From a virus: a stretch of DNA of 50,952 nucleotides. Shown piece by piece: positions 7,001 through 45,723 of this stretch. The translations under genes and the position numbers were made by a program. Each line of letters begins with the position of its first letter. Position 1 is the stretch's first letter. Location of the stretch: positions 1-50,952 of IMG/VR virus record IMGVR_UViG_3300024273_001720; one strand, written 5' to 3'. A model generated the notes under the pieces. It ran no database searches, was not told the origin of the DNA, and saw only the letters and a program-made list of their open reading frames with translations.

Positions 7001-9596
7001 TATCTTCATCAAACGCATAATATACAGTACCATCTGAATTTAATATTATAGAATAATATGATGTCACCCCATTATATTCCGTGAAATCTCCCTCTATTAA
7101 AAGCTTATCATCCCAAACTACGTTCAATGTATACAATCTCACTCCGTTGAATCCTGAACCCGTACCGAAACTAGTATCGATAGATCCATCAGATTGGATT
7201 TTTACAATATTGTCAACAGGCGTTCCGTTGTAAGAACTAATATATCCTCCTAAATAAAACGACGTTTCACCTTCGATTCGCGCAAGGTAGTTGGCGTTAT
7301 TAGGAAAATATGGACTTACACCAGAACCTGAATTAAATGTAAAATCTCTTGTTCCATTAGGTAGCAACTTAATTATTCCATTAAGTCCATTTGTCCCGTT
7401 ATATGTATTAAAATATCCTACAACGTACATAGAATTGTCAGGATTAATTAACACGCTCGTCGTAGTATTATTAAATCCTGAACCTGTAATAAATGAAGAA
7501 TCTATCGATCCGTTAGAAAGTATTCTTGCTATTCTATACGTTGGTGTACCGTTGTAATTACTAAAAATACCTGTCACAACTATAGAACCATTCGAGTCGA
7601 TTGCAGCACCTTGTGTAAAGTTATTAAAACCAGACCCCATTACAAAAGATGTATCTATACTTCCGTCAATATTTAGCCTTACTATTCTATTCTTTGATAC
7701 TCCTTGATACGACGTGAATGTTCCTGTTGCAATTATTTTACCATCAGTTTGTTGTACAATCGAAGAACCCGAATACAGTATTTGATTAACACCTGTTCCT
7801 ACATTAAATGAAGTATCTACTGTAAGGTCTTCATTTAGTTTAATTAAACCCTTATAGGCTACAGTTGCACCGTTTTCATCATATGCCGTAAATGAACCAT
7901 AAAAATAACTATTAGTAGGATTAAAAACATAATCTAATAAATAATAACCGCTGCTAGGTAGAAATGAATAACAAAATCCTGTTGGAATAATTTGTACCGG
8001 TGTTGTAAGTCCAAGATTGTTACTTTCAGCAGAATCTATTCTTACAAAATCAGAAATATTACCAGAATAAACACCAAACCCTGTTTGTCTCTTTCCATTA
8101 CCATATGCATAATCCTCAATAACAATTGAATTACCTTGTAGATATGACTTATATTGACCTGCACCTATCTGAGAGATTGCACCATTTAAAGAACCTGCAA
8201 TTTGTGCAAGACTACCGTTCGTAGAAAATCTATTGTTGATAAATGTTCCTTTAGGTAATGAATCATCCGCAATCATAATAAAACCTCCTAGATTGTAATC
8301 TTTTATCTCTAATTCAAATTTATCAAATAAAAACAATTTATCATTATTACTAGGCGGTTGTGTTATTGTTAATTTTATAAAACCTTTAAATTCATTTGAT
8401 TTTGAAACAGCTTCAATAGTGCTACCTGTCTTTGAATATCCTTCAAAGAAGCTTGTAATTTTTCTATCAAGAGCTACTGTAATTTTATTACTTTCAATAT
8501 GAGAAGTATTAACAAGATTATTTACATGATAAAAATAACCCTCTTTATCCTTCACATAATTAAGCGATGGCAAAGATAAATCAGTAGCATTTGGTAACAT
8601 GTCAAGATCATTTAGATCCGTACCTGATAAATCATAAAAAGATTTATAACTAGCAGGATCTATTGTTATTTCTCCTACACCATTGATATAATTTGGTTTA
8701 AAAGATCCTTCATCATATGCATCTGTATATAATCCAAAGTATCTAAATATTTTATAGTTTTCAGCGTTATCATCATCAAATAAGAATTCAAGATTAATTA
8801 TATTTGAAGGAACTACTCCATTTCTTTCAAAACCAGCAGTAATAATTTCGTTATTAAATATTTCAGGATAATCGGTAGAAGTATAATATTCTTCTAAAAT
8901 TTCATTCTTTTTTACAAATCCACCCTTAACTATATCAATTCCATTAAACGAGGACTTTGCTCCTAATTCAAAATTAATAGTTAATGCAGACTTAGAAAAT
9001 TGCTTGTCATTTACGTGATTTGTAAGGTACTTACCGATGTTTGACTTTATAGATAAATCAAAGGTTTTTACAATTGTAGCATTCTTTAATAATTCTAGTA
9101 TTCTTCCGTTCTGACCTTCTGTAGTTTCAGCATGTTTTTTATCGTAGTCAACAGAAGACACTCGATAGATAACAAAATTACTTGGAATCTTTTTATCTAG
9201 CCATATTGGGGCAAATATCTTATATTGTTCATCATATAATTTCGTAGAATTGAAAGAGGCGCCGCATTGATACTGATCTTCATACTGGAATTCATAATCA
9301 GAATAAATTGCAACATCTGAATATTTCCTTAAAACCTGATATCTAGAAGATATTGGTAGTTTTTTGTAATATCTTGAAATGTCTATTGAAAATTCACCCT
9401 TCGGATCTATTGGATATTTTTGATATTCAACTTTAGATAGTTCTTTATTTGCTTTAAATGAACTCAAGAATAGATTAGAACTAGAATCAACCACAAGTTT
9501 TACGTTACTTGTTAATTTAGGATTAGTTCTTAAAAGTGCGAAAGATTTATTGTCTATTGAGTTGCTTTCAATACCAGTATTAATGATGATAGCCAT
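4077..9596 (-). CDS. Giant tail protein with delta-60 beta-propeller repeats
   Basis: The largest gene here, 1839 residues. Residues about 575-860 hold at least five repeats of the type 'NxDGSIDTSFxxGSGFN ... xNGT', the signature of delta-60 (DUF5122) beta-propeller repeats common in Bacteroidota surface proteins. The flanking parts are Asn/Ser/Asp-rich and show no family I recognise. It lies in the tail block between the 1216-residue protein and the collagen-like fibres, so it is most likely a distal tail or adhesion protein. A minus-strand box GTGATATATAATA lies about 25-35 bases before its ATG, so it may have its own promoter. Propeller assignment is confident; function is inferred. Confidence 0.75.
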   Translation of the reverse strand: MAIIINTGIESNSIDNKSFALLRTNPKLTSNVKLVVDSSSNLFLSSFKANKELSKVEYQKYPIDPKGEFSIDISRYYKKLPISSRYQVLRKYSDVAIYSDYEFQYEDQYQCGASFNSTKLYDEQYKIFAPIWLDKKIPSNFVIYRVSSVDYDKKHAETTEGQNGRILELLKNATIVKTFDLSIKSNIGKYLTNHVNDKQFSKSALTINFELGAKSSFNGIDIVKGGFVKKNEILEEYYTSTDYPEIFNNEIITAGFERNGVVPSNIINLEFLFDDDNAENYKIFRYFGLYTDAYDEGSFKPNYINGVGEITIDPASYKSFYDLSGTDLNDLDMLPNATDLSLPSLNYVKDKEGYFYHVNNLVNTSHIESNKITVALDRKITSFFEGYSKTGSTIEAVSKSNEFKGFIKLTITQPPSNNDKLFLFDKFELEIKDYNLGGFIMIADDSLPKGTFINNRFSTNGSLAQIAGSLNGAISQIGAGQYKSYLQGNSIVIEDYAYGNGKRQTGFGVYSGNISDFVRIDSAESNNLGLTTPVQIIPTGFCYSFLPSSGYYLLDYVFNPTNSYFYGSFTAYDENGATVAYKGLIKLNEDLTVDTSFNVGTGVNQILYSGSSIVQQTDGKIIATGTFTSYQGVSKNRIVRLNIDGSIDTSFVMGSGFNNFTQGAAIDSNGSIVVTGIFSNYNGTPTYRIARILSNGSIDSSFITGSGFNNTTTSVLINPDNSMYVVGYFNTYNGTNGLNGIIKLLPNGTRDFTFNSGSGVSPYFPNNANYLARIEGETSFYLGGYISSYNGTPVDNIVKIQSDGSIDTSFGTGSGFNGVRLYTLNVVWDDKLLIEGDFTEYNGVTSYYSIILNSDGTVYYAFDEDNMGPIIVGDNLFASNSGECIKLIYNRDGIAIQPMINAKFNEWDISTMIGGSEVDQAIVVKKQDIGLLQVGEFVSQLNSKNFTKIIEIELDPFNSDQYRVILDKPTIFTRDNVFEVYREYDVIHGKFSAYDFKDFDFDFYSTKNSELGELKYEVFEGYNTPSEFFTGLTPVLEADDIEDAKIIDVSSEYDRLRENELKETSLKSRVVPVINKFSLVDATNARSLDYVLNANEAFGSDNLSPNIKIASVRNPDYLNMEHFCINSIPDGYRSDVEKIKSITGFLDFNSSGGITKEGLKTTSFDYFKSFFKWSGAVGTSELIWINDKRKKLYTIFNSGGSIESDNSTVFRGLRYSYKKRKETTLNSPTDFIMTSEVVDYKFGVVLNYTNNGIENTAPITVIKNDVFKFICVYIDLVTYSNSISKIDRISSYLLDDLIETGTTNVKDIDIPFFIDFSASIVGEENDNWVLRASEFAADPDFLKYVTPDSDGRYSSISFDYLGSVYYCDVDNVIDSESVSIKGYPYLTYDGVIQPGLRFDPNEFALISQDPAVSRFKYIEGGSNVFNDLLESISAYEFSERFNKFNGVNYVTIDSSGNEVLNDFVLSIEDGVEFYKPSIITSVSDPEKPKAYQLSSGEVGRVIVDRTDGGYLTVLRRMNGDYNPIVKDVITFTDIYSENKLIRLENISEVVLNNARELLIYNKFNDLGVAFSSYKNTMDNYGYISNYFYHKVNDENAKNIIKLSQTSDKLPLYPAIGEIAIDRKDINLFKSKYSSDYFSKAIIGGKSEPAYGTLSPVEKINFMTSTIMKVKNEYDLLSFDSKEESSVNSLDDIRNNSLNTSSIHWYENTEEVFIDFYLPRSIAQELIRDGIKNSFSNYVTAANSFGNKESIDDDLELYINSNIVSRFIIDEIQIYGIESKNISTEFIPVATISELRSDLYKQLSNYTIKSYQNDSLSFRLIYNKRSGYSYKFKIHIKIQA

Positions 9597-23616: not shown

Positions 23617-24420
23617 CTACATCATAGAATCCAGTTTAGTTTGTAGTTTTTTAATTTGTTTAGTCCAATCGACGATTGATTGTTCTTTCCCGGTAATGTT
23701 GATTCTTTTCCAACTTTCTATTTTTTTAGCAATACCATCTTCCATCTCTTGATTGTAATATGCCTCGTCATTGTTGTAATTTTTGGCAGCATCTCTCTTT
23801 ATAATCTCTGACCATGTTGGCCATTCATACCAATCGTTTTTATCTTTTAATATTTGAATGATTTCACTATCTGTTGGTTTTGAATTCATCTTAACATCTT
23901 CTAATGCCTTTGTAATTCTGGCCTCATATTGTTTAATGTCATTGTTTAACTTTTCAGCCTTAGACATTTTTTTAATCTTGTCAGAATATTCTTTCGAAAT
24001 CGTAGAAGCTCCAGTTTTAGGAATGCTTGTTTTTGTAATATATCTATAATGAAGTCTTTGGATATTGTGACCACCTGCATAAATAGCTTCAGTCGCAAAA
24101 TTATATGCAACTCCATCTCTCTGGATTTGTGCATTTATTTCAATATTTCCTTTAGCACTTTTACTAACGTTTAAAGAAAGTAAAGAATCAGTTGGTTGTG
24201 TATAAGTTTCAACAGCTTTAACCATATCAAAGATTAGATTAAGTCTTGCAGATTCTCTGTCATACTTAGTAAATTCTTGGTTGAATGTTTTAACAAACCA
24301 TGTTTCAGTAGCAGCAACCATTTCTAAAACAGTAGGTTCTAATGCATCCAAAATAACATTAACAATATTATTTTCCTTTGATTCGTTTAAGAACTGTGAA
24401 TATGTTTTAATTTTGCTCAT
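23617..24420 (-). CDS. Putative internal capsid protein with T4-like capsid-targeting N-terminus
   Basis: A 267-residue Lys/Glu-rich, helical protein with no recognised domain. Its N-terminus, MSKIKTYSQFLNES, closely resembles the capsid-targeting peptide of T4 internal proteins (MKTYQEFIAE in IPIII). In T4 the prohead protease cuts after a hydrophobic-x-Glu triplet; here that would be FLNE followed by Ser-14. The body contains two long helical stretches near residues 145-180 and 235-267. It is monocistronic-looking: a terminator module precedes it and a hairpin leader follows. Capsid packaging is inferred from the peptide. Confidence 0.55.
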   Translation of the reverse strand: MSKIKTYSQFLNESKENNIVNVILDALEPTVLEMVAATETWFVKTFNQEFTKYDRESARLNLIFDMVKAVETYTQPTDSLLSLNVSKSAKGNIEINAQIQRDGVAYNFATEAIYAGGHNIQRLHYRYITKTSIPKTGASTISKEYSDKIKKMSKAEKLNNDIKQYEARITKALEDVKMNSKPTDSEIIQILKDKNDWYEWPTWSEIIKRDAAKNYNNDEAYYNQEMEDGIAKKIESWKRINITGKEQSIVDWTKQIKKLQTKLDSMM

Positions 24421-35551: not shown

Positions 35552-36155
35552 TGTAATAATTGTTAATAAACGTTGTTACTTCTTCTGTTAAATATTCTTG
35601 TAGTTTATTTATCTCAATTTGTGAGACTGCCACCTTGGCGATTGTATTAATTAGGTTATCTTTATCCTCATCTGCACTGTTAATTAACATGTCAAATATT
35701 TGTTTATTTGGTATGTTTAAATTGATTACAGTAGATAGGGGTTCAATATTCTTTTTAGAAAGTTTTGCCACTAATTCCTCTAATGGAGAAACCTCAGGTT
35801 TAACATCAGCACCTGTTGGGGTTCGGTTAGTTTGTATTGGTGTGTTTTTAATAATTGGCATTGGAGATTCTCCCATTGCAACTTGAGTAAGCGTATCAGC
35901 CCCAGGAAATGGTAAATTACCATCAACTACTTCTGATAGGAATTCATCCAATACATTGTTAAATATTTGAGATCCATCTGTGAACTTTGTAAATTTGTCA
36001 TCTACGCTAAGTACTTCAACGACTTTGCCAAAGTTCTCTCCTTTTTTCCATTGATATTGTTTGGTTTTTTCTTTCACTGCTTCCATTATTTGTATATTTT
36101 GATAATTATATTCTTTTTTTGAGAATTGTTTCTTAATCCATCTGATTGAACTCAT
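35544..36155 (-). CDS. Hypothetical protein, start uncertain
   Basis: The frame opens further upstream (ATG at 36233), but that would overlap the preceding gene by 101 bases. I prefer the ATG at 36155 (203 residues, MSSIRWIKKQFS) or the ATG at 36087 (181 residues, MEAVKEKTKQY), which has the A-rich leader typical here. The middle is Pro/Thr-rich (about residues 105-145) and looks like a linker between a small N-terminal and a helical C-terminal domain. No family recognised. Confidence 0.55.
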   Translation of the reverse strand: MSSIRWIKKQFSKKEYNYQNIQIMEAVKEKTKQYQWKKGENFGKVVEVLSVDDKFTKFTDGSQIFNNVLDEFLSEVVDGNLPFPGADTLTQVAMGESPMPIIKNTPIQTNRTPTGADVKPEVSPLEELVAKLSKKNIEPLSTVINLNIPNKQIFDMLINSADEDKDNLINTIAKVAVSQIEINKLQEYLTEEVTTFINNYYNE

Positions 36156-36345
36156 GTTTGGTTTCATTATTATAGTATTTATGTTGAAATGAATCAATAA
36201 AATCAACTGACCTACTGGGACCCATAAATGCATCTATGGATTTAACCCATCTCCAATAAAAATCCCTGCTTCCATTCTCTTTAAGATATTCTACCAATAC
36301 CTTTTTTTCTGGCAATATTCTTTTATTAAAACTCATTCCATGCAT
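36133..36345 (-). CDS. Small hypothetical protein
   Basis: A 70-residue aromatic-rich protein (VEYLKENGSRDFYWRWVKSI, then FIDSFQHKYYNN). It overlaps the deaminase stop by 20 bases; an alternative ATG at 36336 (MSFNKRIL) reduces this to 11. The pattern of short overlaps supports it being real. No family recognised. Confidence 0.5.
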   Translation of the reverse strand: MHGMSFNKRILPEKKVLVEYLKENGSRDFYWRWVKSIDAFMGPSRSVDFIDSFQHKYYNNETKHEFNQMD

Positions 36346-36841
36346 TTACCTGGTTAACAATAATTCCTGCAGTTTCCAACAATTCAACACCACTCATATC
36401 TCTATAATCTTCAGTGTAATACACTGTAGAAATTCCTGCCTGTGTGATTAATTTTGCACAATCAAAACATGGGCAGGTTGTTGTATATAATGTGGCACCT
36501 TCACAACTCATTGTTGATTTGGCGACTTTCATAATAGCATTTGATTCAGCATGCAAAACTTCACGTTTCGTAATTGCATCTCTTTTAGTACAACATCCAT
36601 TTTCACACGTGTACCCATGCTCCTCGGTTAACTCTAGGGCAAAGTCTGGATTTTCATAATATTTAATATCATCTTCCTCGCATTTGTTGTCAAACCCATG
36701 TGGCATGCCATTATATCCAAATGATATTACTTGATTGTCTTTCACAATTACACATCCAACCTTTCTTCGGTTAGCGTAACTGAGTTTTGCGAACTGATAT
36801 GCGGTTTGCATATAAATTATTTCTATCGGAATTCTAGGCAT
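36326..36841 (-). CDS. Deoxycytidylate (dCMP) deaminase
   Basis: A 171-residue protein with the zinc-deaminase signature: HAESNAI supplies the His ligand and proton-shuttling Glu, and CPCFDC supplies two Cys ligands. An inserted loop with extra Cys (YTCENGCCTKRDAI) matches phage dCMP deaminases, which bind a second zinc. The enzyme turns dCMP into dUMP to feed thymidylate synthesis. The ATG is two bases from a 15-bp inverted repeat that carries a TATATAAT box. Confidence 0.9.
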   Translation of the reverse strand: MPRIPIEIIYMQTAYQFAKLSYANRRKVGCVIVKDNQVISFGYNGMPHGFDNKCEEDDIKYYENPDFALELTEEHGYTCENGCCTKRDAITKREVLHAESNAIMKVAKSTMSCEGATLYTTTCPCFDCAKLITQAGISTVYYTEDYRDMSGVELLETAGIIVNQVNAWNEF

Positions 36842-36843
36842 AA

Positions 36844-36883
36844 AAAAAGTCTATATATGTTTAGTATTATATATAGACTTTTT
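36844..36883 (-). terminator. Long inverted repeat: terminator and/or start-gating hairpin before the deaminase
   Basis: Arms AAAAAGTCTATATAT (36844-36858) and ATATATAGACTTTTT (36869-36883) form a perfect 15-bp stem with a 10-base loop. On the minus strand it ends in a T-run just before the ATG, so it could terminate the upstream acidic-protein gene. It also contains TATATAAT (36866-36873), partly in the 5' arm, so a transcript started there would lack that arm. Confidence 0.6.
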
Positions 36884-36902
36884 ATTTAGTTTATTCTCTG
36901 GA

Positions 36903-37382
36903 TTATTCTACATCCTCAGCATCGATAGCGTCCTTAGATTCTTTACACTCATTAATTTTCTTAGCGTAAGCCTCTGACATTCTATTCAAACATGCTTCAA
37001 ATGCTTCAGTTTCCATGTCACTTTTCATTTCGGTAAGAGCGTTAACTGCTAATTTAGCAACTAATGCAGCGTTTTCAACCATGTATGTTTCTATTGTATG
37101 ATCGTCATGCGCATCTTCTGCCCACTCCTTTGCCTCGTCAATGATTGCCTCGTAACATTTTTCTAACATTCCATATACTGGAACATTAGACGCCATTTTT
37201 GAGTTTGGTTCTTGAATTCCGATTGCAGTTACATCTTCAGCTTCTTGAACTTCTTCAGCCTCTTCTTCGGTTTCCTCTACGTCCTTTTCGTCAGGTTCAC
37301 TCATTTTTGATAGTGTGTCTTCGATCTCCTCCGATCTATCCATCTCGCCAACGAATGTTTCAAATGATTTAATACTTCCCAT
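36903..37382 (-). CDS. Acidic putative prohead core / internal capsid protein
   Basis: A 159-residue protein with a very acidic stretch at residues 16-52 (for example EEIEDTLSK and ETEEEAEEVQEAED) and a helical C-terminal domain. The N-terminus MGSIKSFETFVGEM fits the capsid-targeting peptide pattern (aromatic-x-x-Phe-hydrophobic-x-Glu) seen in three neighbours, with a potential prohead protease site after FVGE. Acidic, helical proteins of this size form scaffold or core in T4-like proheads. That role is inferred. Confidence 0.55.
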   Translation of the reverse strand: MGSIKSFETFVGEMDRSEEIEDTLSKMSEPDEKDVEETEEEAEEVQEAEDVTAIGIQEPNSKMASNVPVYGMLEKCYEAIIDEAKEWAEDAHDDHTIETYMVENAALVAKLAVNALTEMKSDMETEAFEACLNRMSEAYAKKINECKESKDAIDAEDVE

Positions 37383-37410
37383 AATTTTATTTTTTTTTAT
37401 ATGATTACTT

Positions 37411-37426
37411 GAATTTTATATATCTC
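37411..37426 (-). promoter_or_regulatory. Candidate TATATAA box before the acidic protein gene
   Basis: On the minus strand GAGATATATAAAATTC lies 29-44 bases before the ATG at 37382, inside a 48-base gap with no hairpin. It matches the recurring GATATATAA core. Confidence 0.35.
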
Positions 37427-37430
37427 TATC

Positions 37431-37742
37431 TTAGTTCATATATTCAAAACTAGAGGGTAGTATGTGTTTCTGTAATTTTAGTACCTTTATTATTAGTGCA
37501 ACTACAACACCACCTGGCATGATTGCGATAGTAGTAAGTCCTACTGTTTTTAGAACATCTCGCATTTGATTTGCAACCCATTCCTTTTCAATATCACTCA
37601 TTTTTCTCTCGTTAAACATGTGTTTACATATCATATTGAATGCAGTTTTTGTCTCATCACTCTCATTCTTTAATGCACCAATAAATTTTCTAAAGTGTGC
37701 CATAAAGTCATCTAAATATGACTGGCTAATGTTTATTTTCAT
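37431..37742 (-). CDS. Small membrane-type protein resembling a LETM1 segment
   Basis: A 103-residue protein. Residues about 63-90 form one hydrophobic segment (VLKTVGLTTIAIMPGGVVVA and onward), followed by LQKHILPSSFEY. A Pro-Gly hydrophobic helix followed by 'LPS[ST]F' is a hallmark of LETM1-family proteins. The resemblance is short and from memory. It overlaps the GNAT gene by four bases. A single-span membrane role (for example a holin-like or envelope protein) is an alternative. Confidence 0.5.
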   Translation of the reverse strand: MKINISQSYLDDFMAHFRKFIGALKNESDETKTAFNMICKHMFNERKMSDIEKEWVANQMRDVLKTVGLTTIAIMPGGVVVALIIKVLKLQKHILPSSFEYMN

Positions 37743-38197
37743 GGTTTAGGAAAACGTACCATTGTGTTTCGAGTTTCGCTCTTGTCAACATTCTTTATAA
37801 ATCCATGTTGCTTATAAAACTTTTCAAGTCGAGCAGTTGAAGTTGCTCCAAAATCCTTAGATGGAGTCAAATATATTTTAAGACCCAATTGATCTGCATA
37901 ATCATTAATTTTATCCATCAATTCCGAGCCTACGCCATTTCCTCTATCCTCTTTAGGAATAACGATTCTAGTCAATTCTAGGAATTTACCATTATTATAT
38001 AGATCTAATATAACATTGAATTTTGGTTCAAGTTCCTTTAGGACATATGATTCACCAAGGATTGGCGTGTTATCATGTCCACATTTGTGGCAAATATACA
38101 TATCATGTCCACCATCTTCAAGTCTCCATTTCCATCCACAGTTATCACAGACTATTTGGTTGGCTGAAAATTCTTCAAACAACAGTACATGTTTCAT
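37739..38197 (-). CDS. Zinc-ribbon GNAT acetyltransferase with capsid-targeting-like N-terminus
   Basis: A 152-residue protein with three parts. Residues 1-13, MKHVLLFEEFSAN, resemble the capsid-targeting peptides of neighbours, although no clean cleavage Glu follows Phe. Residues 17-42 are a zinc ribbon (CDNCGWKW ... CHKCGHDN). Residues 50-150 are a GNAT fold with the acetyl-CoA loop RGNGVGSELMDKI and a C-terminal LEKFYKQHGF. It could acetylate a host or virion protein, possibly after injection. The GNAT call is firm; the rest is inference. Confidence 0.7.
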   Translation of the reverse strand: MKHVLLFEEFSANQIVCDNCGWKWRLEDGGHDMYICHKCGHDNTPILGESYVLKELEPKFNVILDLYNNGKFLELTRIVIPKEDRGNGVGSELMDKINDYADQLGLKIYLTPSKDFGATSTARLEKFYKQHGFIKNVDKSETRNTMVRFPKP

Positions 38198-38721
38198 TAC
38201 TTAGATTTCTTTTTACCCTGTGCGTTATCCCATGCATCCTCATCTGGATAATCCTCATCACCTGGTTTTGCAGGAGCTTCACCTCTTTTTCTTTTAGCCC
38301 ATACGTTGTCCCATAGGCCTTTTTTCTCTTTTAAAAATTCTTCGAATAGTTTAATTCTTTTCATAGTAGATTTACCTTCATTTTTTATTTGCTTCATCTT
38401 AGCCATCGCCCAATCAACTCCTTCATCTCCACCCCAAATTAACCATGCAATATATCCATTGTCTTTCCATGGTTCATCTTTAAATTCAGGAGCAATCTTT
38501 GAGTTTTTACGATGTCTATTGAATGACGACATTCTACCCACAGTATCAGCACTTAAGTTTTCACCACTTGCTAATTGATGTGCCCTAGCCCAACCTACTG
38601 CAGTTCCGCCCTTTACTTCATCTCTGCCATATTTTTCTTTCCATTCAATTGCTTTTTTAGCATTTGACTTGGCAGCCGCAGGATAATCGCTATATGTGTC
38701 TTCTGATTCTAATATACTCAT
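38197..38721 (-). CDS. Two-part phage protein with internal capsid-targeting-like peptide
   Basis: A 174-residue protein. Residues 14-115 carry a module seen in many phage head-region proteins (KGGTAVGWARAHQLASGE, SFNRHRKN, WKDNGYIAWLIWGGDEG). At residue 120 a Met begins MKRIKLFEEFLKEKKGLWDN, a capsid-targeting-type peptide followed by a GLWDN-AKRKRGE-PAKPGD unit that I recall as DUF5872. The tail is basic (KKKSK). A peptide that normally sits at a protein N-terminus being internal suggests a fusion or an internal start at 38364 (55 residues). Confidence 0.6.
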   Translation of the reverse strand: MSILESEDTYSDYPAAAKSNAKKAIEWKEKYGRDEVKGGTAVGWARAHQLASGENLSADTVGRMSSFNRHRKNSKIAPEFKDEPWKDNGYIAWLIWGGDEGVDWAMAKMKQIKNEGKSTMKRIKLFEEFLKEKKGLWDNVWAKRKRGEAPAKPGDEDYPDEDAWDNAQGKKKSK

Positions 38722-39641
38722 TAACTATATATCATTGAAAATTCTTTATGGTACTTGATTAGGGCTAGTTCCTTCTTTTTTGCCTCTATCTCAATATCTA
38801 GATCCATTCCATATGTTTCAATAAATTCATATAGATAATCTGCATGTGCTCTTAGGATTACTGTATTATCCTCGTGTAGTTTCTTGGAGGATGAGTAGTG
38901 GCATAGTTGACGAATACCCTTTGGCCATGTAGTTGCACACAATTCCAGTGCATCTTTTTCTGGCATAGAATCCTCATAACACCAATGGTGAAAGAAGTCA
39001 AAGGTAATTGGAGTGCCACATAGCTTGTAAATTTCGTATAGGTCGCTTACACTATATTGACTTGCTTTATCGTCATTCTCTAAAACTAATCGTGAGCTTG
39101 CACATTCTGGAAGCAATTTAAAGTTTTCTGCAAATCTTGCAATCGCAGATTCCTTGTCGCCATAGGTTCCACCTACATGGATATTCATTGCAGCATAATG
39201 AGTTCTTGGTAAGCCCATTAAATCCATTACCTTTCCATGCTGAGTTAATTCCCACACAGCATCGTTGACAACTTTAGGATTTGGACTTGCAAGAATATTA
39301 AAAGGACCTGGATGGAATGTAAGTCTTTGACCTACTTTGGTTGCATAATCACCTGCCGTTTTTAACAATGATTTGATTGTATTGTAGTTAGGCAATTCCT
39401 CAATATCATATTCTGAATTCCATGGAAACATACTAGAGGACATACGGTACATTGTAACTCCATTTGCATTATTCCATTTAAGAATTTCGATCATGTCTCT
39501 GAGGTTAGCTTCCGCCAACTCACCTGCATATTTAATGCCCTTTGCTTGAAAGGTTTTTTTAATCATGCTTCTACCTATCTTAATACCTTTTTGTTTGTCC
39601 AATGTTAAATTGATACAACAGTAACCGTAATTTGCTCCCAT
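38721..39641 (-). CDS. uvsE: UV-damage endonuclease (UvdE/UvsE family)
   Basis: A 306-residue TIM-barrel protein, about normal length for the family. Recognisable motifs are GYCCINL near the start, MYRMSSSMFPW, RLTFHPGPFNILASP, NIHVGGTYGDKESA, RLVLENDD and TFDFFHHW. His, Glu and Asp in these motifs hold the metal ions. The enzyme nicks 5' to UV photoproducts and some other lesions. It lies among head and internal-protein genes with one-base coupling to the next gene. Confidence 0.9.
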   Translation of the reverse strand: MGANYGYCCINLTLDKQKGIKIGRSMIKKTFQAKGIKYAGELAEANLRDMIEILKWNNANGVTMYRMSSSMFPWNSEYDIEELPNYNTIKSLLKTAGDYATKVGQRLTFHPGPFNILASPNPKVVNDAVWELTQHGKVMDLMGLPRTHYAAMNIHVGGTYGDKESAIARFAENFKLLPECASSRLVLENDDKASQYSVSDLYEIYKLCGTPITFDFFHHWCYEDSMPEKDALELCATTWPKGIRQLCHYSSSKKLHEDNTVILRAHADYLYEFIETYGMDLDIEIEAKKKELALIKYHKEFSMIYS

Positions 39642-39642
39642 A

Positions 39643-39879
39643 TTATTTTATATCTAATTCTTTCTTAATGTTTAAAAATATTCTCTCAGCATTACATGCT
39701 TCTTCCAGCGTAAATACATCTAAATCCTGAAATAGTAAACCACCATCTGTATTGACAAATACAATATTGTCAATTTGTTCAACAGAGTCAACGCGATACA
39801 CTGTATAGTCACCTACTAATATAACATGTGATGCGTTTAGTATTCTTAACTTTCTTTCTTGAAACGAGATCAATCCCAT
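39643..39879 (-). CDS. Small hypothetical protein
   Basis: A 78-residue protein, mostly beta strands (HVILVGDYTVYRVDSVEQID) with a short C-terminal helix. It begins within the last ten bases of the 131-residue gene and ends one base before the UvsE start. No family recognised. Confidence 0.6.
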   Translation of the reverse strand: MGLISFQERKLRILNASHVILVGDYTVYRVDSVEQIDNIVFVNTDGGLLFQDLDVFTLEEACNAERIFLNIKKELDIK

Positions 39880-40265
39880 TCTTTCTCAAATTTATACCAA
39901 TGATCTGCACTTGCACAATCACGAAGTGCTTCCAATATAAGTATGTCCATTTCAAAACCGCTTAATGAATTTGTAAATGCTTCGATAATTCCTTCTAACA
40001 CATAAGAATCAAACGCCTTGCCATCTCCATGATATTCATTAATAGTAGCCTCTGTAATTGCGCTACACAGACGATCCGCAACTCTTTCATTATCACTAAA
40101 TCTATTTCCTGGATAATAGTCATCATTTCCTGGTAGCATTTCCATGATTTTATCAGTTGAATTTCTCATTCTAAATAGAGAGATTGCAGTTGTGATAAAT
40201 GGTCTTACATTATTAGCTGGACTCATCATTCCTATTCCGTTACATTTAATATCTGATACTTTCAT
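39870..40265 (-). CDS. Hypothetical protein
   Basis: I take the ATG at 40265 (131 residues, MKVSDIKCNGIGMMSPANNV) because the longer start at 40319 would overlap the preceding gene by 44 bases, and this ATG follows the typical A-rich leader AATCAATATAAA. The protein is largely helical. No family recognised. Confidence 0.6.
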   Translation of the reverse strand: MKVSDIKCNGIGMMSPANNVRPFITTAISLFRMRNSTDKIMEMLPGNDDYYPGNRFSDNERVADRLCSAITEATINEYHGDGKAFDSYVLEGIIEAFTNSLSGFEMDILILEALRDCASADHWYKFEKEWD

Positions 40266-40275
40266 TTTATATTGA

Positions 40276-40545
40276 TTAAAGGGTTGTTTGAATTTTTGGG
40301 TAGTGATTACATGTATCATAAACTTTCATTACACGTTCTTCTAATTTAGTTGGTAAATCTAAAGCATATAATTGAACGTTCTGGTATAAATATCCATCGA
40401 ACATTCCATATAACATATTTTCCAAGTGGAAAACATTTTCGTTTCCATCTGATCTATCATCATATCGAATATCCTTAATAAGGCTTGAGATTTCAAATCT
40501 TGTTTCTTCTGTCATGTTTGAGTGTCTGTCGAAATTTGTGTACAT
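40276..40545 (-). CDS. Small hypothetical protein
   Basis: An 89-residue acidic/aromatic protein (MYTNFDRHSNMTEETRFEIS). It follows a terminator/leader module copy that has lost its hairpin, and precedes the 131-residue gene by ten bases. No family recognised. Confidence 0.6.
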   Translation of the reverse strand: MYTNFDRHSNMTEETRFEISSLIKDIRYDDRSDGNENVFHLENMLYGMFDGYLYQNVQLYALDLPTKLEERVMKVYDTCNHYPKIQTTL

Positions 40546-40552
40546 TTTGTTT

Positions 40553-40636
40553 GTTTTAATTATAGTATAAATATAACTATAAACTTTGATATAAAAAAAA
40601 AATTAGTATATTATTTTCGGAAAGTTATTAACAATT
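40553..40636 (-). repeat. Terminator/leader module, copy B (hairpin degenerate)
   Basis: Carries the exact 16-mer AAAGTTATTAACAATT (40621-40636) and, in minus orientation, TATATTTATACTATAATTAA before the next ATG. The GCC-AAACA hairpin of the other copies is replaced by an A/T run, so it probably no longer terminates. That would let the 66- and 89-residue genes be co-transcribed. Confidence 0.6.
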
Positions 40637-40836
40637 TAGAATATGCGTTTATGAACTTCATCGTATACGAAATCATAATTCTCATTTAATACATCTAATT
40701 CTTCGTCTGTCATTTCACGCCCATCATAAAATGCAGAGCTAATAAATGCATCACAAAAATCAGGATAATCTCTAGTGTCTATTCCATCCACGTCAATGTC
40801 ACTAATTTTACTGTAGTCTAATTCTAAATTTACCAT
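40636..40836 (-). CDS. Small acidic phage protein of a conserved 'DYPDFCDAF' type
   Basis: A 66-residue acidic protein containing DGIDTRDYPDFCDAF and a C-terminal Glu/Asp-rich helix. I recall the 'DxRDxPDFCDAF' phrase from many small phage proteins of unknown function, including T4-like cyanophages. It is flanked on both sides by terminator/leader modules, so it may form its own small unit. Confidence 0.65.
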   Translation of the reverse strand: MVNLELDYSKISDIDVDGIDTRDYPDFCDAFISSAFYDGREMTDEELDVLNENYDFVYDEVHKRIF

Positions 40837-40861
40837 ATTATTATATTTTAATGTTGTTATT

Positions 40862-40941
40862 TAATTACTATACAAATATAAACAAAAAAAGCCAAACAAA
40901 AAATGTTTGGCTAATTATTTTTTAAAAAGTTATTAACAATT
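40862..40941 (-). repeat. Terminator/leader module, copy C
   Basis: Contains the 16-mer (40926-40941), the hairpin, and on the minus strand TATATTTGTATAGTAATTAA ahead of the 66-residue gene. TATATTTG fits the Bacteroidota -7 consensus TAnnTTTG exactly, so the module may combine a terminator with a host-type promoter. Confidence 0.65.
40890..40912 (-). terminator. Intrinsic terminator after the endolysin gene
   Basis: A 9-bp perfect stem AGCCAAACA / TGTTTGGCT, loop 5, followed on the minus strand by TTTTTTTG. It lies 31 bases beyond the endolysin stop. Confidence 0.75.
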
Positions 40942-40942
40942 C

Positions 40943-41554
40943 TTATTTTACATAAGTAGCATACTTATATGTTTTAACCTTTCTATCTTCCAATCCATTA
41001 GTACCACCATTAATTCTTTTAGTAAGTACTAATATTGCAGCATCATTGATTCCTTTGTCACAAATATCCCATAATTTATTCTTGTCAAAGAAAAACATAG
41101 CTGACTCAAATGAATAAGTGGTTGCTACCAAATCTGGATTTTCCATAATTTCTGGTTTATTTAGATATTTAGCGAATGCTTGATAGTTTGCCTTTCCAGT
41201 TAATTGAAGAGCTCCTCTACCTCTGAATTTCCAACCATCCCCAGAAGCTTCATCGCCATTACCCATTCTTGATGCATAAACTCTATTTGCAATCCTTTCA
41301 GGTTGACGCGCATAAGACTCTTCTAAATTACCTGGAAAATATTTTCCAAAAGTATCCTGTAATCCTCGTGTTGAATAGTTTAGGTTTTCAGTGAATAGTT
41401 TATAATCACAGGTTTCGTGTGCGGTTTGTGCAAAAAAATGTGCAGCTCTGATTGGTGTTAATTTAAAATAGGCAATTGCAGCCTTCATGGTACCTGGGCC
41501 AAATGATCCATCAACGGTAACTCCTACCCTTTCTTGTAATGATTTTAAACTCAT
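40943..41554 (-). CDS. Endolysin: peptidoglycan-binding motif plus GH19 domain
   Basis: A 203-residue protein. Residues 1-30 (SLQERVGVTVDGSFGPGTMK) are a peptidoglycan-binding_1-like motif. The rest is a GH19 chitinase-like lysin with AHETCDY (catalytic Glu 47), WKFRGRGALQLTGKANYQ and KRINGGTNGLEDR. It would hydrolyse cell-wall glycan for lysis. No signal peptide is visible, so export needs a holin; a multi-pass membrane protein is encoded two genes upstream. Its catalytic domain is related to the one fused to the hub at 29404-31515. Confidence 0.85.
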   Translation of the reverse strand: MSLKSLQERVGVTVDGSFGPGTMKAAIAYFKLTPIRAAHFFAQTAHETCDYKLFTENLNYSTRGLQDTFGKYFPGNLEESYARQPERIANRVYASRMGNGDEASGDGWKFRGRGALQLTGKANYQAFAKYLNKPEIMENPDLVATTYSFESAMFFFDKNKLWDICDKGINDAAILVLTKRINGGTNGLEDRKVKTYKYATYVK

Positions 41555-41901
41555 AATTTATATATTACTTTAAATACCTTTACATTCTTGGAAGCTGCCA
41601 TGTCGATAGTCATTCTAGTTCCTTTGGAAACACCATCCCAAAACGCAATAATAATATCGGAATTTTCAACGATTTTTATATTTCTAATTGCAGCAGCACC
41701 CTTGCCAATAGACCAGTCTGGTTTAAAAATAATAGTATCTATGTTGTTTAGATTTGCATATTGTTCTGCTAGAGAATCTGCTCCTTTTGCTCCACCACTA
41801 ATTATTGAAGATATTTGAGTTCTGTTAGATATTCTATTTAAAGTTTTTTCTAGTAATTCATAGTCCATAAAGGTTCTACTGCCGATGACACCTATTCTCA
41901 T
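41551..41901 (-). CDS. SLOG-family (YspA/DprA-like) nucleotide-binding protein
   Basis: A 116-residue Rossmann-type protein with the small SLOG signature: IGVIGSRTF, then IISGGAKGADSLAEQYA, KPDWSIGKGAAAIRN and AFWDGVSKGTRMTID. Family members sense or cut nucleotide-derived ligands. It overlaps the endolysin gene by four bases and directly follows the membrane protein gene, an unusual place for this family. It may link lysis timing to a nucleotide signal, but that is inference. Confidence 0.8.
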   Translation of the reverse strand: MRIGVIGSRTFMDYELLEKTLNRISNRTQISSIISGGAKGADSLAEQYANLNNIDTIIFKPDWSIGKGAAAIRNIKIVENSDIIIAFWDGVSKGTRMTIDMAASKNVKVFKVIYKL

Positions 41902-42246
41902 TTATTTCCAGAATAACTGAACGCATATCAGGACTAAAGCTAATGAGAGTGAAACAATTGTCTTTGTATTTAACGATTCTCCCATCATGAAATATGTTAG
42001 TAAACCGAATGACAACATTCCCATTGCAAATCCTATGAATCTTCCTGGCCATATCTGGCCATCATAATATTCGGCAATGAGTCGAGTAGCAACTATAAAC
42101 ATATATGATATTGTAGAACCTCCGATCGCTGCAATCAAGATTGGATTCCTTTTAAACCATGGCCAGATAAATTGTCCGTTTGTTTGAAACCATATCATTG
42201 ATTGTCCAAGCAAGAACAATAATATTCCATAGATTAAACCTCTCAA
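41902..42246 (-). CDS. Small multi-pass membrane protein, holin candidate
   Basis: A 114-residue protein with about four hydrophobic segments: residues 1-20 (GLIYGILLFLLGQSMIWF), 35-55 (ILIAAIGGSTISYMFIVAT), 68-88 (GRFIGFAMGMLSFGLLTYFM) and 95-113. It sits between RNase HII and the SLOG/endolysin pair with overlaps or no gap. That position fits a holin, although four-span holins are less usual. No transporter motif is recognised. Confidence 0.6.
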   Translation of the reverse strand: MRGLIYGILLFLLGQSMIWFQTNGQFIWPWFKRNPILIAAIGGSTISYMFIVATRLIAEYYDGQIWPGRFIGFAMGMLSFGLLTYFMMGESLNTKTIVSLSLALVLICVQLFWK

Positions 42247-42875
42247 AACAATGTTCCCGTTTCAGTTAATAAATGTGATATAAAACTTGGTCGATGCACT
42301 TCAGTTGCTCCGATTTCTTTGATCGCTTTGATATGAGCTGCGGTTCCATATCCTTTGTTAGAGTTCCATCCATATCCTGGAATTTGAATATCTAACTCCT
42401 TCATCATTGCATCTCTTTCGGTTTTGGCAAGAATACTTGCAGCAGCAATTGATGTATATTTGTTATCTCCACCAATTACTGTCTCAAACGGAATTCCTTC
42501 AAATCCATGAAATTGGTCTCCATCAATTAGGATAAAATCAAATGAATGTGTCTTATTAACTTCAACTAGACATTGATTCATTCCCTGTAGGGTTGCTCGC
42601 AAAATATTGGTTGATTCGATTTGGTCGGGATAGATGTGAACAATGCTATATGCAATTACATTGTCTAATACAATTTGTCTTGCATCTTTTCGTTGCTGCT
42701 CATTAAGTAGTTTAGAATCCTTTACCAATTCATGTTGAAATCCGTATGGCATGATACATGATGCAACAGTCACTGGCCCAGCTAAAGCACCGCGACCTGC
42801 CTCATCAACTCCAATTTCTATAGTGTCCTCTACTCCTGTAAAACTTGATTTAAGTAGTATGTGTCTTGTTTCCAT
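42243..42875 (-). CDS. rnhB: Ribonuclease HII
   Basis: A 210-residue protein of normal length. The motif IGVDEAGRGALAGPV holds the first catalytic Asp-Glu pair, ILIDGD the next Asp, and SIAAASILAKTERD the last Asp. It removes RNA from RNA-DNA hybrids and single ribonucleotides from DNA. The start codon lies inside the 3' arm of a 13-bp perfect hairpin, so expression is probably controlled at translation. It overlaps the membrane-protein gene by four bases. Confidence 0.92.
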   Translation of the reverse strand: METRHILLKSSFTGVEDTIEIGVDEAGRGALAGPVTVASCIMPYGFQHELVKDSKLLNEQQRKDARQIVLDNVIAYSIVHIYPDQIESTNILRATLQGMNQCLVEVNKTHSFDFILIDGDQFHGFEGIPFETVIGGDNKYTSIAAASILAKTERDAMMKELDIQIPGYGWNSNKGYGTAAHIKAIKEIGATEVHRPSFISHLLTETGTLF

Positions 42876-42910
42876 CTATTATATGTTTATAGATATTATA
42901 TAATAGATGG
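42872..42910 (-). promoter_or_regulatory. 13-bp hairpin covering the RNase HII start codon, with TATATAAT in the 5' arm
   Basis: Arms CCATCTATTATAT (42872-42884) and ATATAATAGATGG (42898-42910) are perfectly complementary, loop 13. On the minus strand the ATG (42875-42873) is inside the 3' arm. The box TATATAAT (42902-42895) spans the end of the 5' arm and the loop. A transcript started just below the box would lack the 5' arm and leave the start free; a read-through transcript would hide it. Confidence 0.55.
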
Positions 42911-42935
42911 ACTTAAAGTTTCAGTTATTTATATA

Positions 42936-43643
42936 TTAAAGATTATTTTCATCCTTCCATTTATCATAAATGTCTACAACTTCTTGTAGAATTTTAGCTC
43001 TTACAATGTCCTTTGATGTGAATTCATGAACCCCAACCCCACGTACTTTACTAAAAATTTTAATAAACTTATGAAATGATACTTTGTCCTTAGCTATATC
43101 ATATTGACTAATATCTCCGGTGACTAATACCTTTGAATTTTTACCCATCCTTGTTATGAATAAAATTAATGCATGCCATTGTGCATTTTGTGCCTCATCT
43201 AAAATCATAAACGCATCGTCGAATGTGTCACCTCGCATAAACGCAAGTGGTTTGAATTCTATTAATCCATGGTGAATTAAACTTTCAGTTAATTCATGTC
43301 CAACAATCTTTTTAAAGTTGGAAATATATGATTGCATATATGGATCTATTTTATCTGCAATATCACCAGGTAGAAATCCAAGTTTTTCACCAGATTCCTG
43401 TATTGGCTTACATAAAATTATCTTTTTAACTTTTTTATCAGCAAGTAAACTTAGTGAAGTGTAACATGCTGTAAATGTTTTTGAGGTTCCGGCAGGGCCA
43501 GAGCAAAATGTTATATCGTTTTTAAATATTTGGTTGACGTATTCCCTTTGATTATTTCTTAAATTAACATGTTTAATGTTTTCATCTTTGACTGACATTT
43601 TTTTAATGTGCTGTGTTGGTTCTGAACTCGTCTTCTTTTGCAT
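42936..43643 (-). CDS. phoH: PhoH-like P-loop ATPase
   Basis: A 235-residue protein. Walker A is GPAGTSKT and Walker B is MILDEAQN, with SGEKLGFLPGD between them and VLVTGDISQYD after, all typical of PhoH. Such genes are frequent in large and marine phages; an RNA-helicase or RNase-linked role has been proposed, but the function is not settled. It follows the EEYEKC protein gene by 14 bases and precedes the RNase HII hairpin. Confidence 0.9.
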   Translation of the reverse strand: MQKKTSSEPTQHIKKMSVKDENIKHVNLRNNQREYVNQIFKNDITFCSGPAGTSKTFTACYTSLSLLADKKVKKIILCKPIQESGEKLGFLPGDIADKIDPYMQSYISNFKKIVGHELTESLIHHGLIEFKPLAFMRGDTFDDAFMILDEAQNAQWHALILFITRMGKNSKVLVTGDISQYDIAKDKVSFHKFIKIFSKVRGVGVHEFTSKDIVRAKILQEVVDIYDKWKDENNL

Positions 43644-43657
43644 ATAATTAAATATAT

Positions 43658-43951
43658 TTAGTCGCCTGCCATTATGACAAGCTCCTTTAACTTTTTAAGT
43701 GTATCACACTTCTCGTACTCCTCTAGCTCTACAAAATAATTTATAAGAAGATCTATAAACATGCTTCTCTGTCCTACACCATGTGGAATGTCTATTGTAT
43801 TTTTGCTGTCTTGATATACAATAAATCGATTAACAGTTTTTGTAAAATTTCTTGTTATTATGTAATAGCTGGATCTCATTAGGGAGTCTCTTTCCTCTCT
43901 CGTAACTTCTTCCATCCTTGTTAAATCTTTTTGTAATAGGGTAATACCCAT
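43658..43951 (-). CDS. Small protein with C-terminal EEYEKC (UVR-like) motif, copy 1
   Basis: A 97-residue protein. Its end, NYFVELEEYEKCDTLKKLKE, matches the ends of the proteins at 44198-44449 and 45439-45723. The pattern resembles the UVR motif of UvrB/UvrC and McsA (acidic-aromatic-Glu-Lys-x-x-x-[LI]-[RK]). The N-terminal part is helical and differs between copies. A TATATAAT box lies about ten bases before the ATG. It could be a protein-protein adaptor; this is inferred from the UVR family. Confidence 0.6.
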   Translation of the reverse strand: MGITLLQKDLTRMEEVTREERDSLMRSSYYIITRNFTKTVNRFIVYQDSKNTIDIPHGVGQRSMFIDLLINYFVELEEYEKCDTLKKLKELVIMAGD

Positions 43952-43957
43952 TCTTAT

Positions 43958-43967
43958 ATTATATATT
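43958..43967 (-). promoter_or_regulatory. TATATAAT box close to the start of EEYEKC protein 1
   Basis: On the minus strand AATATATAAT ends about seven bases before the ATG at 43951. If it is a promoter, the mRNA would be nearly leaderless. The 73-base gap also has a weak ACCTTTT/AAAAGGT hairpin that could end the bS21 transcript. Confidence 0.3.
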
Positions 43968-44024
43968 AAGATGGACGCTAGAATAAGGGCGAATAAGACC
44001 TTTTATTTGAAAAAGGTTAGTATA

Positions 44025-45426: not shown

Positions 45427-45440
45427 TATATTATATATTT
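45427..45440 (-). promoter_or_regulatory. Candidate TATATAAT box before the 53-residue gene / dnaJ run
   Basis: On the minus strand AAATATATAATATA lies 17-30 bases before the ATG at 45410, overlapping the stop of the preceding gene by two bases. It could start the transcript for the 53-residue protein, DnaJ, EEYEKC protein 2 and bS21. Confidence 0.4.
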
Positions 45441-45723
45441 AGATTTGTTCTAGAATATCCTTGATCTTTGCACATTTCTCATACTCTTCTAATTCAACGA
45501 ATAGGTCTAACATTAAGGATAGGGTGTTTTCCAATGTAGTAGTATCATGACCACTTCGTTTCATTGCAATAACATCAACTCCTTTGTCAACTATCATTTC
45601 ATAGTTTTCGTTGGCTAATTTAATTTTTAGGTCGTACATTGCTTGTTCCATTTCTGCTTCTTTTTGGATTGTTTCAATTTCACTTGTTTCTTCGAATAAA
45701 TCGTTATCGTCAAAGTCTTCCAT
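45439..45723 (-). CDS. Small protein with C-terminal EEYEKC (UVR-like) motif, copy 3
   Basis: A 94-residue protein with an acidic N-terminus (MEDFDDNDLFEETSEIETI) and a helical middle. The end LDLFVELEEYEKCAKIKDIL matches the two other copies in this 2-kb block, and the AKIKDIL part is closest to the UVR consensus. It is the first gene after terminator/leader module D. Confidence 0.6.
   Translation of the reverse strand: MEDFDDNDLFEETSEIETIQKEAEMEQAMYDLKIKLANENYEMIVDKGVDVIAMKRSGHDTTTLENTLSLMLDLFVELEEYEKCAKIKDILEQI

Follow-up and report, generated by a model that had tools for sequence, protein, structure and literature searches.

The RNase HII gene (rnhB) of this virus appears to be guarded by a cis-acting RNA lock which erases itself when the gene's own promoter is used, and the dCMP deaminase gene (dcd) carries what looks like a terminator analogue of this lock. 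We consider this reading likely, given the predicted fold, the promoter class, the covariation among relatives and the parallel at dcd, all of them read from sequence. RNA derived from upstream would contain both arms of a 14-bp hairpin, which would hide the start codon and leave RNase HII untranslated. RNA started near position 42890 at the AAAC-N17-TATAA promoter nested in the hairpin would lack the 5′ arm, and its unstructured ATG could be translated. The output of RNase HII would then be tied to a replication-class promoter and shielded from upstream transcription. At dcd the insulation would act one step earlier, with a hairpin ending in a T-run as a putative intrinsic terminator that has the promoter inside. 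The rnhB hairpin, with the ATG in its stem and no T-run, would block translation, and the dcd hairpin, with its T-run, transcription; both would form only in RNA started upstream and be absent from the RNA of the promoter contained in each. The window is the whole stretch of 50,952 nucleotides that was analyzed (IMG/VR record IMGVR_UViG_3300024273_001720), and the features of the two leaders are collected in Table 1.

Table 1. Positions of the rnhB and dcd genes, their leader elements and the genes upstream of them in the window
Feature	Position	Strand	Remarks
rnhB, RNase HII (210 aa)	42243..42875	minus	ATG 42875-42873; Pfam RNase_HII 1.4e-34
rnhB hairpin, 5′ arm	42898..42911	minus	TCCATCTATTATAT
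rnhB hairpin, 3′ arm	42871..42884	minus	ATATAATAGATGGA; holds the rnhB ATG
rnhB promoter, AAAC upstream box	42918..42921	minus	GAAAC 42922-42918; AAAC-N17-TATAA class; kept in relatives
rnhB promoter, TATAA box	42896..42900	minus	within hairpin; T1 = 42900
rnhB transcription start, predicted (T1+10)	42890	minus	leaderless peak of T1-to-ATG distance at 10, and 72% A at T1+10
PhoH-like gene (phoH) directly upstream of rnhB	42936..43643	minus	co-directional; Pfam PhoH 2.2e-64; synteny
dcd, dCMP deaminase	36326..36841	minus	same leader layout as rnhB
dcd hairpin, 5′ arm	36869..36883	minus	AAAAAGTCTATATAT
dcd hairpin, 3′ arm	36844..36858	minus	merges into T7 run 36848-36842; intrinsic-terminator form
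dcd promoter, AAAC box	36889..36892	minus	
dcd promoter, TATAA box	36867..36871	minus	within terminator hairpin; T1 = 36871
Gene upstream of dcd	36903..37382	minus	late-type promoter GATATATAA; stop codon 19 nt before dcd hairpin

The start-codon hairpin of rnhB

Between positions 42911 and 42871 on the minus strand lies a perfect stem of 14 bp, all Watson–Crick, with a 13-nt loop (AATATCTATAAAC). The first-pass annotation had described a perfect 13-bp stem hiding the ATG; the stem and the ATG in its 3′ arm stand, and only the length had to be corrected. The TATATAAT box (42902-42895) lies across the junction between 5′ arm and loop. Read-through RNA is predicted to fold with −15.8 kcal/mol (z about −5), a stability reached by 0 of 200 shuffles, whereas a short leader with its 5′ end below the box is unstructured (0 kcal/mol), which is the difference between long and short leaders that had been expected beforehand. 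Perfect stems of at least 12 bp with a loop of 3-25 nt occur twice in the whole window, here and at dcd (36844-36883); in 25 dinucleotide-preserving shuffles the mean was 0.04, and none had 14 bp. No T-run follows the 3′ arm, where the sequence reads AACAAGACA, and the rnhB hairpin does not have the form of an intrinsic terminator. Rfam covariance models gave no match up to E = 1 across positions 36000-44000 of the window.

Among the relatives, all 55 rnhB leaders studied have AAAC ahead of TATAA, at a spacing of 17 in 54 of them (51 listed at 17, and three for which 13 was listed but which have an AAAC at 17 as well) and of 18 in one. The hairpin is retained in most lineages although the sequence of the arms is wholly replaced, as the pairs ATTTGTGCCAT/ATGGCACAAAT (L066), ATCTGCTTCATAT/ATATGAAGCAGAT (L071), CGTGAT/ATCACG (L055) and GTGTTTCATATAAC/GTTATATGAAACAC (L225) illustrate. 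In arm swaps with one representative per cluster (24 arm clusters), the mean was −11.7 kcal/mol for own arms and −5.9 for non-own arms, and not one of 20,000 permutations was as good. The covariation score from pair counts in a 23-sequence alignment is 0.182; shuffled alignments give 0.108 (0 of 500 as high) and slid ones at most 0.069. The outer stem extends to codon 3, where the synonymous codons ACT and ACC pair with A and G in the 5′ arm, respectively, and G-U intermediates are found. The compensatory changes in homologous leaders, without which the first-pass annotation would have given up its proposal, are therefore present. A good hairpin is absent in about five of the 24 arm clusters (L038, L050, L056, L058, L069), so the hairpin is not indispensable. 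Among the GTDB genomes there is one close match, L225 (CALPIE020000141.1), which is binned as Bifidobacterium breve and has a phage-type rnhB with the promoter and an 18-bp start-codon hairpin. This is probably a mis-binned phage contig, and we draw no host from it.

Hairpins spanning the start site are found at 29 of 54 rnhB promoters, at 45 of 65 dcd promoters and at 6 of 204 other promoters with AAAC and TATAA boxes. These counts cover 323 distinct promoters of the class in all fetched loci. Because the loci share ancestry and were chosen for containing rnhB or dcd, a Fisher value cannot be taken as a real probability, yet the difference is plain. A generic search for such hairpins at 92 promoters of four sequences also returned rnhB, dcd and few others only. 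Since the hairpin is so rarely found beyond these two genes, it does not come with the promoter class as such. It is scarcely credible, in our view, that the hairpin arose by chance as a by-product of a promoter and a start codon in AT-rich sequence. The region is indeed A+T-rich and some relatives are without a good hairpin, but the 0.04 stems expected in the window, the outcome of the arm swaps and the 6 of 204 at promoters of the same class all speak against it, and a chance origin is contradicted by the comparative tests.

Arms that remain complementary could also form a DNA operator, that is, a dyad over the TATAA box and start site to which a repressor binds, and the inverted repeat does straddle the promoter core. 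The complete turnover of the sequence among relatives, the variable spacing of the arms and the mismatches and G-U pairs, however, fit such an operator poorly. Moreover, the 3′ arm enters codons 1-4 with synonymous tracking, the dcd repeat ends in a T-run, and the dyad is missing at other promoters of the AAAC class. We therefore hold an operator to be very improbable.

The position of the phoH stop codon, 19-24 nt before TATAA and near the outer stem in most loci, would suit translational coupling, in which ribosomes finishing at this stop open the hairpin and the expression of rnhB from the phoH mRNA follows the level of phoH translation. In the window, however, the TATAA box lies 35 nt and the stem 24 nt beyond the stop. 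Some loci have about 430 nt extra between phoH and rnhB, and there the hairpin is often still present: L040 and L054 have a strong one, and L045, L059, L065 and L078 a modest one. Coupling also leaves the promoter within the hairpin unexplained, and we find it quite unlikely. An RNA lock that would be missing from the nested promoter's own RNA remains our preferred reading of the rnhB leader.

A promoter inside a putative terminator at dcd

The hairpin before dcd has a 15-bp stem which runs into seven T just before the ATG and so combines the stable stem and the T-run of an intrinsic terminator. In 57 of 67 dcd leaders the promoter lies inside such a T-run hairpin, and in nine a normal terminator is directly followed by the promoter. 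L155 has no promoter beside dcd, and a GIY-YIG-like reading frame intervenes. In L097 and L155 (genome G012) this frame (MKYHYVYIITNLKNSMKYIGC...) is located between the promoter-terminator and a dcd that lacks an adjacent promoter, which suggests capture of the regulated dcd leader by a homing endonuclease.

The dcd helix comprises 14 pairs with 91% of cells paired, and 10 of the 14 pairs have double-sided changes. The covariation score is 0.491 against 0.228 after shuffling (0 of 500). The arm-swap test was weak here, with 834 of 20,000 permutations as good, since the clustering had lumped 48 leaders, and the pairing was settled by the column-wise count. Of 51 dcd loci, 38 have a co-directional late-type promoter GATATATAA no more than 1.5 kb upstream, where 1.7 would be expected.

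Similar arrangements were seen in other leaders. At 37420-37695 of genome G028 (L194) a TATAA box is placed inside a terminator hairpin as at dcd, and the leaders at G028 52734 and G022 45799 have AAAC or GAAAC in a terminator loop just upstream of TATAA. The leader of a small-protein gene at G028 147083-147475 (L200, around 7476-7520, minus strand) has a 17-bp perfect stem over the start codon, whose loop includes a TTGATATATATTATA stretch and whose 5′ arm is fed by a distinct terminator-like repeat; this is possibly a late-promoter version of the rnhB/dcd device.

Promoter classes, start site and timing

Within 110 nt upstream of genes in four sequences, namely the window plus three relatives with lengths of 167-236 kb, AAAC and TATAA are separated by 17 nt 73 times, against 3.3 in shuffles, and by 18 nt 23 times. 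On these counts we regard AAAC-N17-TATAA as a genuine phage promoter class, and the promoter-like box which the first-pass annotation saw in the 5′ arm belongs to it. In the window alone, exact GAAAC-N15..20-TATAA occurs three times with 2.2 expected, as by chance; the class is visible only with the spacing fixed at 17 and with large related genomes. Apart from rnhB and dcd, the distance from TATAA to ATG peaks sharply at 10 (33 of 204 promoters), and promoters of the class have A at T1+10 in 72%. We infer from the peak leaderless RNAs which begin on the A of the ATG, and this reading sets the start site at T1+10, with T1 the first T of TATAA. The rnhB RNA would consequently start near 42890 with a 15-nt leader that lacks the 5′ arm. 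Many promoters of the AAAC class, and some of the GATATATAA class, sit 8-12 nt before the ATG in all four sequences, which suggests that many of the phage mRNAs are leaderless.

As to the proteins that might read these promoters, the PF09158 profile (MotA C-domain) found no match, and the control profile likewise matched nowhere; five of nine large relatives encode a sigma-70 region 2 protein. A third shared leader type, TTTATATTTACATTATAATTAAAA-like, precedes the window genes 23617-24420, 40276-40545, 40636-40836 and 45439-45723 (all minus strand), in three of the four cases directly after a terminator that is almost the same each time (GCC(C)AAACA and TGTTTGG(G)C around a T-rich loop, then a T-run). 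These leaders are possibly another promoter class, of neither the AAAC nor the GATATATAA type. In genome G028 one and the same clamp-loader gene, with its leader, occurs at either end of the contig (1096-2046 and 235070-236020); the ends overlap, and the genome is therefore probably complete.

The genes behind AAAC-N17/18-TATAA promoters include a gp44-like clamp loader, a gp46/47-like ATPase and metallophosphatase, a gp32-like protein, a DnaB-type helicase, a B-family DNA polymerase, a RecA-like protein and a DNA ligase, as well as thymidylate synthase and ClpP. The GATATATAA motif precedes the genes for tail sheath, portal and prohead protease. By gene content alone, then, the promoter within the rnhB hairpin would be of the replication-gene class and not late-type. 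With a promoter of this class, the silenced RNA is more likely late or general read-through from upstream than early RNA. The geometry is that of the T4 genes e and soc and of I-TevI (PMC3014915, PMC2988022), and it could be argued that exactly the logic of gene e applies, with rnhB late, the nested promoter late and the hairpin silencing early and middle read-through. We think this unlikely, because the promoter does not belong to the GATATATAA class of the tail sheath, portal and protease genes, and because RNase HII and dCMP deaminase serve nucleic-acid metabolism.

We suggest instead that the likely role of both hairpins is to insulate replication-class genes from upstream transcription. 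Insulation would account for the two hairpins and also for the dcd genes with a terminator before the promoter. Probably it is late read-through against which these genes are shielded, and such timing is best grounded at dcd. At rnhB, phoH and its neighbors are co-directional with the gene, and only 15 of 48 loci have GATATATAA in the 3 kb before it, some of these perhaps by coding coincidence. We give about even chances to a more general module, a promoter nested in its own silencer, which would insulate replication-phase genes placed among other transcription units; the order of silencing would then be reversed relative to T4 gene e, with middle-type genes silent in late RNA. A promoter nested in a hairpin also offers a compact way to shield a gene from its neighbors, and the two sequence-defined promoter classes together with the predicted start site make the transcription program of these phages testable.

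Comparison with known systems

The leaders of these phages are A-rich and show no enrichment of Shine–Dalgarno sequences, and Prevotella Lak phages are among the nearest named phages. A Bacteroidota host, which the first-pass annotation had taken for granted, is plausible on these grounds. In Flavobacterium, where Shine–Dalgarno signals are absent, structure in the start region tunes initiation (PMC6847099); these phages show none of the signals either, as would suit such a host.

In the T4 genes e, soc, 49 and I-TevI, a long RNA started upstream sequesters the translation start, and RNA from the near promoter is without the 5′ part of the stem (PMC3014915, PMC2988022). The rnhB leader resembles this class in two respects: the translation start is paired in the read-through RNA, with the ATG in the 3′ arm of the 14-bp stem (z = −5), and the promoter lies in or just after the 5′ arm (42921-42896, with the predicted start at 42890). 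It differs in the nested promoter, which judged by gene content is not a late one. The T4 systems have a late promoter (TATAAATA), it is the early RNA that is silenced, and Shine–Dalgarno sequences are involved. In these phages, by contrast, we find a replication-class promoter, see no Shine–Dalgarno sequence, have the pairing backed by turnover in multiple lineages and meet a terminator version at a sister gene. The claim that exactly the T4 late-promoter logic is used had thus to be dropped. Nevertheless, the textbook device would not be peculiar to T4, for a large and distant group of uncultivated phages without Shine–Dalgarno sequences has it with strong covariation.

A hairpin of more than 20 bp has been proposed to block translation of spoIIG read-through at Bacillus subtilis sigG; RNA started at the sigG promoter is unable to form it (PMC5942855). 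In contrast to rnhB, sigG is a cellular sporulation gene with a different promoter, and no nested terminator version is described there. The insertion sequences IS10 and IS50 likewise hide the transposase start in a hairpin which forms only in externally started RNA and blocks translation. Their arms, however, involve the ends of the mobile element, and there is no mobile element at rnhB or dcd.

For a promoter inside a terminator we found no published case in the open literature searched, and such cases may still exist. Ordinary junctions of terminator and promoter insulate as well, and they are found before dcd in the nine relatives mentioned above and before other promoters of these phages. 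Unlike in these junctions, the dcd promoter of 57 relatives is placed inside the terminator, and its own RNA cannot form the terminator. This adds a second form to the device, which would serve the same purpose by acting on transcription, and the relatives swap the nested and the side-by-side forms.
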